A stretch of 45,334 bases of DNA from Helicobacteraceae bacterium (GTDB lineage: Bacteria > Campylobacterota > Campylobacteria > Campylobacterales > Sulfurimonadaceae): NCBI GenBank assembly GCA_026988515.1, contig JALSLA010000060.1:1-45334 (forward strand). The letters are read 5' to 3'. This document shows, piece by piece, positions 17,314 through 23,961 of the stretch. The notes beneath the pieces are model-generated. The model did no database searches. It worked only from the letters and a program-made list of their open reading frames with translations, and was not told the DNA's origin. The position numbers were made by a program, and so were the translations under genes. Position 1 is the first letter of the stretch; the number at the start of each line of letters is the position of its first letter.

Positions 17314-18357
17314 TTATAAAAACCTATCAATCACTTTTTGCATCTTGCCACTAAAACCATACTGCTCTATACTATAACAAAGATGAAGCTTTAAGCGTTC
17401 TTCATAGTTTTTTCTATACGCTTCTTTTCCTTTCTCGCTTAAAAAAGAGTGCTTTATCATTTTTATCACTTCGGGGGTGCTAACAAGGATCCGTTCAAAT
17501 ATCTTTTCAAGTCGTTTCGTTTTAATACCAATTTTCTCTGCAAAAAGTTCAAAATCTTCTAAAGTATAATATCCCATAGCTTCAAAAGCCTTTGTCGGAC
17601 TATCCATTTCATTCTCAAACAAATCCAATCCCATATAGCCCTCTTCATTGAGTATATGGTAACGCGTATAGAGTAAATCATAGTTGGGGGTTAAACTTCT
17701 ATCTTTTCTTTCTTGGGCACGATAGAGTGAAAAATTCTTTAAATGTGCATCTGCATTGCCAATGAGATAATTCACCACTATTCGCTGATAGAAGTCTTCC
17801 AATGCAGGCATCGATGCAGGAATATACATTTGTATTGCTTTGGCGCAAGCTTCATAAGAAGATTCATACTTGTAGTTTTTACCTTGCTTGTCGGAAGTAT
17901 ATGCTAGTACCGCTGCAAAGTCTTCTTGATCAAGCTTTTGTCCATTTTTGTCATAGTCAAAACGTTTGGTGATATATGCCAATTCACCTGAACTAAAAGG
18001 AATCAATGCAGAATCTGCCGTAGGTATCTTAAATATCTGCTTTGATATCTGCATACTTAAGTGCTCATTGGCACATATGTCATGGCTGTTATCGACTTGT
18101 TCTTCGCTGGGGGAAGGCTTGAGAATATAGCGTCCTTCTATATCTGTGGTAACTAATGTATTATGTTCATCAAATGCTAAAGAGAGCTTGTCTTGTATTC
18201 CAGAGATAGAAATACGTTTTGCATATTCTTTACGTTTTTGGTAAAACTCTTGCTTATTAAAAGACAAACCAGAGACCTTCCTTCCACCAAAAAGCTCCTT
18301 CATACATTTAGGACAATAAATCTTTGCACTTTGTGCTAAACAGCTATGACACCTCAT
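17314..18357 (-). CDS. hipT: HipT-like serine/threonine kinase toxin
   Basis: A 347-residue kinase equal to HipA without its N-terminal subdomain. It begins with a zinc-ribbon-like C3-x2-C6 ... C15-x2-C18, then RISISGIQDKLSL, where S50-I51-S52 matches the S-x-S autophosphorylation motif of HipT beside the Gly-rich loop. ILKPSPS supplies the ATP lysine (K80); catalytic residues are in GNADAHLKNF (D203, N208) and the metal aspartate in NYDLL (D227). E. coli HipT phosphorylates tryptophanyl-tRNA synthetase; the target here is unknown. It overlaps hipS by 14 nt. Third gene of a three-gene toxin-antitoxin operon. Confidence 0.88.
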   Translation of the reverse strand: MRCHSCLAQSAKIYCPKCMKELFGGRKVSGLSFNKQEFYQKRKEYAKRISISGIQDKLSLAFDEHNTLVTTDIEGRYILKPSPSEEQVDNSHDICANEHLSMQISKQIFKIPTADSALIPFSSGELAYITKRFDYDKNGQKLDQEDFAAVLAYTSDKQGKNYKYESSYEACAKAIQMYIPASMPALEDFYQRIVVNYLIGNADAHLKNFSLYRAQERKDRSLTPNYDLLYTRYHILNEEGYMGLDLFENEMDSPTKAFEAMGYYTLEDFELFAEKIGIKTKRLEKIFERILVSTPEVIKMIKHSFLSEKGKEAYRKNYEERLKLHLCYSIEQYGFSGKMQKVIDRFL

Positions 18358-18679
18358 GTAATATCTCTTTCAATGTTATAGAACCAATTGTATTAAATTC
18401 TGTTGTTTTTATGAGTCGTGTAAAGTGATCTTCAGGATCAATCTTCAGTTCTCTACACTGCATCTCTTTCACAGCCCCTTCCGCTAAAAGGTTAAAGAAA
18501 AAAGAAAAAAGGGTTTTAGAACGAAACACCTCCTCCTGCAAAGGAAAATGTACCGAGATACTCACTGCATCTTCATTTTCTAAGTAATGCAACATGTATT
18601 GAAAAAGGTATATTCCTGCATCATCTTTCTGAAGCAGGCCTATCTCCTCACCATTTCTATATACTCTGGCTTCTTGCAT
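18344..18679 (-). CDS. hipS: HipS-like antitoxin (HipA N-terminal subdomain as a separate protein)
   Basis: A 111-residue protein corresponding to the HipA N-terminal subdomain 1 (ARVYRNGEEIGLLQKDD, then VSISVHFPLQEEVF, then FFFNLLAEGAVKEMQ). In the HipBST systems this subdomain is encoded separately and acts as the antitoxin that neutralises HipT, while HipB is mainly the DNA-binding partner. The gene lies four bases after hipB and overlaps hipT by 14 nt, so the three are translated together. The assignment rests on sequence pattern and on the gene order B-S-T. Confidence 0.85.
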   Translation of the reverse strand: MQEARVYRNGEEIGLLQKDDAGIYLFQYMLHYLENEDAVSISVHFPLQEEVFRSKTLFSFFFNLLAEGAVKEMQCRELKIDPEDHFTRLIKTTEFNTIGSITLKEILHEVS

Positions 18680-22281: not shown

Positions 22282-23598
22282 ATGATGAACCTTCTACTCC
22301 TTACAATCGTCGTCCTTGTTGCTCTCAACGGATGCGGCGGCACAGGTACCTCCTCGACGCAACCCCTCCTCTCCGTTCCACCGCCGAATCAGGAGCGTCC
22401 GATGCTACTCATTCGTCTCAGTTACGACAATATTGATTTTCACAACGATGCCGCAGCCTGGCACCGCAAAATATTCGGATTTGAAAACCATCAACTGAAC
22501 CACTATTTTCATGAGGTCTCGTACGGCAACTTCTCGTTTTATCCCGCGGCAGAAGACGACGAAGTACCCAACGACGGTATTATTTCCGTTACCTTACCTC
22601 GCAACCATCCCGATTCGGGTATGGGCAACGCCATTGATGTGGATCTTTCGCAAGCCATTGTAACCGCCGATGCCCACATTGACTTTGCACAATATGACAG
22701 CGATCGTAACGGAGCGCTCACCCCCGATGAACTGCAACTCGTATTTATAGTCGCCGGCAACGAAGATGCTTTCACCGGAGACAATGCCAGCTTAGGCGTA
22801 TGGGCGCATGAATCCTGTACGGAACGGCGCAATACCCCGACGGTTGACGGCGTTAGCATTATGGGCTGTCAGTACCAAGGCAATTACGCACTCTTTGGCG
22901 AACGCCACGGTGACCGTGACGCAACCATTGGTATTATCGCCCATGAACTCGGTCATGCCGCTTTCAATCTTCCCGATCTGTACGATACCACCGACCGTTC
23001 AGCCGGCGTGGGCTATTTTGCATTAATGGGAGCAGGCATGTGGGGACGTGACGGGCTGGGCGATCTGCCCGGAAATACCCCGACGCATCTGTGCGCATGG
23101 AGTAAAAGTGCCCTCCAATGGATCATACCGACCACGCTCAATGATGCCAACAATTTACATGTAAATTTTTATGCTGTCGCCTCACCCAAATTTAATGTTT
23201 TAAAACTTCCTGTAAGCAAGAGTGAATATTTTTTGTTGGAAAACCGCCACTACAGCGGTTATGACCGCGGATTAAAAGCAATAGCATTCGCGTTTGAAGG
23301 CGGTTTGGCCGTGTGGCACATCGATGAAAAAGTCATTACCGACCGTTGGGCCGATAACACCGTCAATGTTGACGTACTGCATAAAGGGGTCGATCTGCTG
23401 GAGGCGTCACGCGCAGTTTTAGACGACGATGCCGCGGCATACGGCAACAAAGAGAATCTCTTCTACCAAGGAAACGTCGATACACTGACTCCCGACACTA
23501 TGCCATCGACAGCAGGCTACAATGGCCGCCCGAGCGGCATTAATATCACCGATATCTCCCCGCCATCCGAGGTTATGCATGCGACCATCTCACTGTAA
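22282..23598 (+). CDS. M6-type metalloprotease lipoprotein
   Basis: A 438-residue secreted lipoprotein (lipobox ending LNGC, C18) with an M6/immune-inhibitor-A-like zinc protease domain. The catalytic motif is HELGHAAFNLPDLYD: H221, E222, H225 and probably D232 as third zinc ligand. An EF-hand-like loop (D139, D141, N143, E150) likely binds calcium, as calcium stabilises this family. The usual N-terminal propeptide is missing; the mature domain begins almost at once (RPMLLIRLSYDN). A propeptide-like sequence is instead encoded by the next gene. It should sit on the outer membrane or periplasmic face. No clear ribosome binding site is seen. Confidence 0.85.
   Translation: MMNLLLLTIVVLVALNGCGGTGTSSTQPLLSVPPPNQERPMLLIRLSYDNIDFHNDAAAWHRKIFGFENHQLNHYFHEVSYGNFSFYPAAEDDEVPNDGIISVTLPRNHPDSGMGNAIDVDLSQAIVTADAHIDFAQYDSDRNGALTPDELQLVFIVAGNEDAFTGDNASLGVWAHESCTERRNTPTVDGVSIMGCQYQGNYALFGERHGDRDATIGIIAHELGHAAFNLPDLYDTTDRSAGVGYFALMGAGMWGRDGLGDLPGNTPTHLCAWSKSALQWIIPTTLNDANNLHVNFYAVASPKFNVLKLPVSKSEYFLLENRHYSGYDRGLKAIAFAFEGGLAVWHIDEKVITDRWADNTVNVDVLHKGVDLLEASRAVLDDDAAAYGNKENLFYQGNVDTLTPDTMPSTAGYNGRPSGINITDISPPSEVMHATISL
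23152..23167. repeat. 16-bp palindrome AATTTACATGTAAATT (copy inside the M6 protease gene)
   Basis: Perfect palindrome, identical to 11304-11319, in coding sequence. Part of the iterated TACATGTA family. Confidence 0.9.
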
Positions 23599-23607
23599 GG
23601 AAACATG

Positions 23608-23961
23608 ATGAAATTGCTGTTATTACTACTGTTTTTAGGTTCACTGTTACCGGCTGCACCGGCATTCCACGGTTATTTGGAATTACGTGACACGAACAAC
23701 GAACCGTTTTATGCCCACCTCAAGGGCGATGAATATCTCAACTGGTTTGAAAGCAGCGCAGGCGAGATTCTACTTTTTAACAAAGAACGCCAACGGTACG
23801 AATATGCCGTCGTTAAAGATGACAAGCTCGTCCCCTCCGGTATTGCCAAAAAAGCCCATACAAAAACTCGCGCGCTCCAACCCATAAGCCGCCAGACATT
23901 ACAACGGCTCTGGAGACAGGCACGCTCTCATGAACGTCAGCGCCGCCAAGAGTCACCTTAG
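23608..23961 (+). CDS. small secreted protein resembling an M6 protease propeptide
   Basis: A 117-residue exported protein with a signal peptide (residues 1-18). Its mature part, HGYLELRDTNNEPFYAHLKG, then DEYLNWFESSAGEILLF and YEYAVVKDDKLVPSG, follows the pattern seen at the N-terminus of many M6 proteases (a domain with GDEY..W.E...G and a closing YA...DG.L). That region normally precedes the catalytic domain. Here it is a separate gene nine bases after the protease, which itself lacks it. It may act as a chaperone or inhibitor in trans. AAGGAA lies five bases before the ATG at 23608. The last codons overlap the convergent DUF89 gene by four bases. Confidence 0.7.
   Translation: MKLLLLLLFLGSLLPAAPAFHGYLELRDTNNEPFYAHLKGDEYLNWFESSAGEILLFNKERQRYEYAVVKDDKLVPSGIAKKAHTKTRALQPISRQTLQRLWRQARSHERQRRQESP

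Follow-up and report, generated by a model that had tools for sequence, protein, structure and literature searches.

A prodomain-less M6 metalloprotease lipoprotein and an M6 prodomain homologue encoded by the next gene in a Helicobacteraceae bacterium

In a Helicobacteraceae bacterium of the Campylobacterota, an M6-type zinc metalloprotease lipoprotein lacks an N-terminal prodomain, and the gene that directly follows encodes a small secreted protein that is, by profile comparison, homologous to the prodomain of single-chain M6 proteases. The two genes probably specify one M6 zymogen divided over two polypeptides, in which the small protein would be the latency partner in trans. Prodomains normally lie within the protease chain. 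All coordinates of the gene pair refer to the window, that is, the whole stretch of DNA analysed (45,334 nucleotides; assembly GCA_026988515.1, contig JALSLA010000060.1).

Results

The protease gene occupies positions 22282 to 23598 of the forward strand and encodes 438 amino acids. Its product scored 147.7 bits against M6dom_TIGR03296 and 45.8 bits against Pfam Peptidase_M6 (PF05547), passing the respective curated cut-offs of 110.8 and 22. By these profiles the protein is a member of the M6 family, with predicted proteolytic activity. In the translation, the zinc-binding motif HELGHAAFNLPDLYD (22942 to 22986, forward strand) carries HELGH at residues 221–225, and the zinc site as a whole reads HELGH...LPDLYD. 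The HExxH signature takes the form HELGH in nearly all relatives as well, and HELSH in one locus (L028). Positions 22282 to 22335 of the same strand encode a lipoprotein signal peptide (LVALNGC, lipobox ALNGC), whose lipobox cysteine is residue 18. The catalytic domain starts at about residue 51, after only a short linker behind the lipidated cysteine, and therefore the chain has no room for a prodomain. This bears out the first-pass annotation, which had described a protease without the usual N-terminal prodomain and had placed both reading frames correctly. A GlyQ gene adjoins the locus; the best PDB match of GlyQ is 3rf1, a Campylobacter protein, which points to a host within the Campylobacterota that is probably Sulfurovum-like. 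On the minus strand of the window, the translations of two adjacent genes look like the N-terminal part (18344 to 18679) and the main part (17314 to 18357) of a HipA-type kinase.

The protease stop is followed by a 6-base gap (GGAAAC, 23599 to 23604, forward strand) and then by the small gene, which lies on the same strand (23605 to 23961). From its first ATG at 23605, 6 bases past the stop, it encodes 118 amino acids, beginning with a Sec signal peptide that ends in ...AAPA. The second ATG, at 23608, lies 9 bases past the stop and gives 117 amino acids; counted from there, the earlier description of a secreted 117-residue protein encoded nine bases on is true. The sequence AAGGAA directly 5' of the ATG resembles a ribosome-binding site, and in the window both genes use the same reading frame, with the protease stop between them. 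Scans for consensus promoters and terminators were uninformative. When the small protein alone was compared with Pfam, NCBIfam and PDB sequences, no useful match was obtained.

A blind first hint came from tblastn of one small protein of the family against plasmids, which returned a single match, in the N-terminal part of a protein from Monoglobus that is itself an M6 protease. An HMM of the small family was searched against 4,379 frames from around 80 M6 genes of many bacterial and archaeal phyla and from four plasmid loci. Every match at E ≤ 1e-3 was the N-terminus of an M6 protease, the best at 3.3e-12, and this forward search is independent. The reverse HMM, built from 17 cis prodomains only, picked up all of the family's small genes, at E values from 3e-19 to 3e-9 (2.8e-12 for the small protein of the window), a result that is not fully independent because most of the 17 sequences had been picked for matching the small family. 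Aligned by hhalign with the 17 cis prodomains, the small family gave a probability of 99.55% and an E value of 1.7e-23 over 72 columns, which span the beta region only and leave the helix outside. A profile search against M6 prodomains had been named beforehand as the test of the claim that the small protein is prodomain-like; the similarity was found, and both HMM directions agree with it.

Judged in this way, the small protein and the N-terminal prodomain found in single-chain M6 proteases of many phyla are homologues. A prodomain by position would precede the protease within one polypeptide, at the N-terminus; here it comes from a separate gene 3' of the protease. The small protein is thus an M6 prodomain by homology of sequence, not by position. 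With propeptide-like inhibitors acting in trans it shares the homology to the propeptide of the protease family and the location of its gene beside the protease.

Among 100 relatives, both genes were found in 31 and neither in 69, with no mixed case; as the relatives share kinship, a simple probability calculated from these counts would mislead. In 30 of the 31 genomes with the pair, the protease gene is followed immediately on its 3' side by the small gene, on the same strand, and two more genomes found by profile have the same order. In G047 the two genes are on different contigs and are not adjacent. The gap between them mostly measures −4 to +18 bases, the exceptions being a broken protease frame (L004), a stretch of Ns (L005) and an uncertain start (L010). 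This constancy of order, taken together with the highly significant prodomain likeness in both search directions, argues that the pair is not due to chance. Its presence is patchy within several genera, so that both genes have been acquired or lost together on more than one occasion. Two weak small-gene matches (G039 and G074) were rejected as spurious; the G039 match, like weak matches in G005, G022 and G042, lies in a long frame, and all five were discarded as chance matches to unrelated proteins.

Extra prodomain-less proteases without a small gene of their own occur in four genomes (G011, G017, G034 and G042), and G034 also has an orphan extra small gene. In G006 (L125), two tandem prodomain-less M6 genes are followed by a single prodomain gene. 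The extra proteases and the G006 tandem fit a diffusible partner, and such gene counts hint at a single prodomain being enough for more than one protease. Two loci carry orphan prodomain genes (L029, 1240 to 1734; L037, 2228 to 2725) that have no adjacent protease and a longer C-terminal tail. The motif NTKSS-WKEVLKE is common to both tails, and neighbouring genes are also common to the two loci.

In a tree of 96 M6 domains, the 38 prodomain-less proteases of the family formed one group with a support of 93. The group nests in a clade supported at 100 together with L092 (Bacillus sp. RAR_GA_16) and L085 (a metagenome-assembled Alteromonadaceae genome). Both of these closest outside proteases are single chains that keep an N-terminal cis prodomain, and the tree thereby supports the earlier description of the prodomain as split and reordered. 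The sequences probably record one gene fission in the ancestor of the family, in which the prodomain was relocated from the 5' to the 3' side of the protease. The GD motif of the small family reads GN in L092 and L085, the two closest cis enzymes, and for this reason an aspartate-switch reading of the motif was dropped.

The arrangement had also been described as not usual in this family. This holds in the Gammaproteobacteria and Bacteroidota sampled, where the prodomain matches lay mostly in long frames: all 13 of those in 321 gammaproteobacterial genomes (514–1781 amino acids) and most of those in 346 Bacteroidota genomes, with one Bacteroidota genome (G980) as the exception. The prodomain frames of G980 are short or degenerate. 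Two near-identical short genes of this genome (L139, 3091 to 3561 and 5186 to 5668) encode a signal peptide and an M6 prodomain without a protease domain, with a tail resembling those used for type IX secretion sorting. They are possibly independent stand-alone prodomains or deletion products. In G027, L131 and L132 are pieces of a single-chain cis-prodomain M6 protease that resembles a cyanobacterial plasmid protein, and they may be assembly contamination. Many M6 enzymes of other phyla gave no match to the profile of this prodomain, so not every M6 fold requires it. Archaeal (Thermoplasmatota) M6 proteases at L059, L062, L063 and L073 had no prodomain match and little room for one.

Wherever the N-terminus of a split protease could be read, a lipobox or a closely similar motif is present, in 34 by the strict pattern and in four more by eye (L015, whose N-terminus is cut off by the end of the locus, was left out of the count). 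Among the cis or Bacteroidota prodomain frames, 23 of 25 had no lipobox, and the other two pattern matches resemble ordinary signal peptides. In a lipoprotein, a cis prodomain would lie between the anchor and the enzyme, so that activation would free the enzyme. In the lipid-anchored C10 zymogens of Bacteroides, the anchor is lost on maturation, as was pointed out previously (PMC2873492). From the sequences we infer that a separate soluble prodomain would avoid this loss of the lipid anchor on activation. Statistically the argument is weak, because the correlation between lipoprotein and split may have arisen only once.

For structure prediction with AlphaFold we used a read-through chain, in which the TAA was read as Q and both proteins were joined. 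The model had a mean pLDDT of 92.2 and a pTM of 0.77. In this model the small protein forms six strands (E448-505) and a C-terminal helix (H520-540), and the natural cis enzyme L092, predicted with a pTM of 0.81, has the same strand–helix order. In the prediction, which takes up the complex modelling proposed in the first-pass annotation, both components folded well, and the prodomain was placed without confidence in the read-through chain and in L092, so that the models speak neither for nor against an interface. We estimate that the pTM of the read-through model is about the value to be expected for a correct protease with uncertain prodomain placement. In a Foldseek search of the predicted model against the PDB, the top match was the immune inhibitor A2 zymogen (4yu6/4yu5; E 8.9e-14).

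Discussion

The interpretation of the two genes as one M6 zymogen in two polypeptides draws on the homology, linkage, co-occurrence, single-clade distribution and lipoprotein/cis contrast described above. The ancestor would have been a single secreted chain consisting of a signal peptide, the prodomain and the M6 catalytic domain. In the ancestor of the family, the prodomain would have moved to a gene of its own just 3' of the protease and acquired a signal peptide, and the protease would have turned into a lipoprotein. Both products would be exported, and the prodomain protein would act in trans by binding the catalytic domain, most likely so as to cover its active site. The bound prodomain would hold the protease latent in the periplasm and may aid its folding. 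When the prodomain is degraded or dissociated, the anchored protease would become active, and the split would leave the N-terminal lipid anchor on it after activation. Less in keeping with this interpretation are the uncertain placement of the prodomain in the models, the many M6 enzymes of other phyla that lack a match to it, the separated genes of G047 and the orphan small gene of G034. As to why the zymogen was split, we propose only tentatively, and with some doubt, that a lipid-anchored protease could in this way shed its prodomain and yet stay on the membrane, one diffusible prodomain serving several proteases per cell.

A protease that folds unaided, with a small protein that only guards the periplasm, as proposed for Spi and SpeB, is a serious possibility, though it falls somewhat short of an even chance. 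It overlaps with the divided zymogen, the sole difference being that the small protein would have no folding role. Its closest analogue by design is SpeB–Spi, where a propeptide analogue, the propeptide-like inhibitor Spi, is likewise encoded beside the protease gene (PMC2873492); SpeB, however, belongs to another protease class (a C10 cysteine protease, unrelated to M6). The M6 enzymes without a detectable prodomain of this type also agree with unaided folding. Against it stands the difference in what the two proteases retain. SpeB has its own cis propeptide in addition to Spi; the window protease has none left, which leaves the small protein as its sole prodomain.

The converse, in which the small protein aids folding of the protease without holding it latent, is unlikely. 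The tight coupling of the gene pair would suit such a helper, and the prodomains of many secreted proteases do help folding, but an anchored periplasmic protease left uncontrolled could be expected to damage the cell. It is quite improbable that the small protein is a relic or a repurposed domain with another role and no action on the protease; the orphan copies at L029 and L037, with their longer tails, point in that direction, and its strict co-occurrence with the protease and almost constant position next to it point against it. That a frameshift in one gene or an assembly error produced the pair, as the in-register frames of the window could suggest, has practically no chance: a broken single chain would have the prodomain at its other end, the small gene carries its own signal peptide, and an artefact is refuted by the recurrence of the arrangement in 32 genomes that differ in frame and gap.

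Several known systems resemble the divided M6 zymogen proposed here. Single-chain M6 zymogens (M6dom_TIGR03296, for example L092 and L085) have a catalytic domain and a prodomain homologous to the window pair, but their prodomain is in cis and N-terminal, and they have an ordinary signal peptide without a lipid anchor. Immune inhibitor A2, the best solved-structure match of the model, is also an M6 zymogen; it is a larger, single chain, and the small protein had no sequence match to any PDB chain. In the AprA–AprI and Mep72–BamI systems, a secreted zinc protease of the metzincin type has a partner thought to curb premature activity, and bamI adjoins mep72; the passages on AprI and BamI do not describe them as protease prodomains (PMC4334185). 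In staphopain–staphostatin and Bacteroides Bfp–Bfi, a small inhibitor gene lies beside the protease gene, and some members are lipoproteins; the staphostatin and Bfi inhibitors, however, are not prodomains, and for Bfi no known propeptide showed significant identity (PMC2873492).

Zinc proteases served by an inhibitor gene of their own have been described, AprA–AprI and Mep72–BamI being examples (PMC4334185). What seems new is an M6 enzyme that has no prodomain in its chain and is paired with a homologous one encoded by the following gene, in reversed order and within one lipoprotein clade. In the open-access literature, to which our search was mostly confined, we found no M6 case in which the sole prodomain comes from another gene, and natural proteases whose only prodomain is encoded by another gene seem to be rare. 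The profiles built here describe an M6 prodomain for which neither Pfam nor NCBIfam gave a matching model. With this natural pair, it may become possible to study separately how a prodomain contributes to folding, inhibition and targeting, and anchoring of the protease provides a testable reason for the split.
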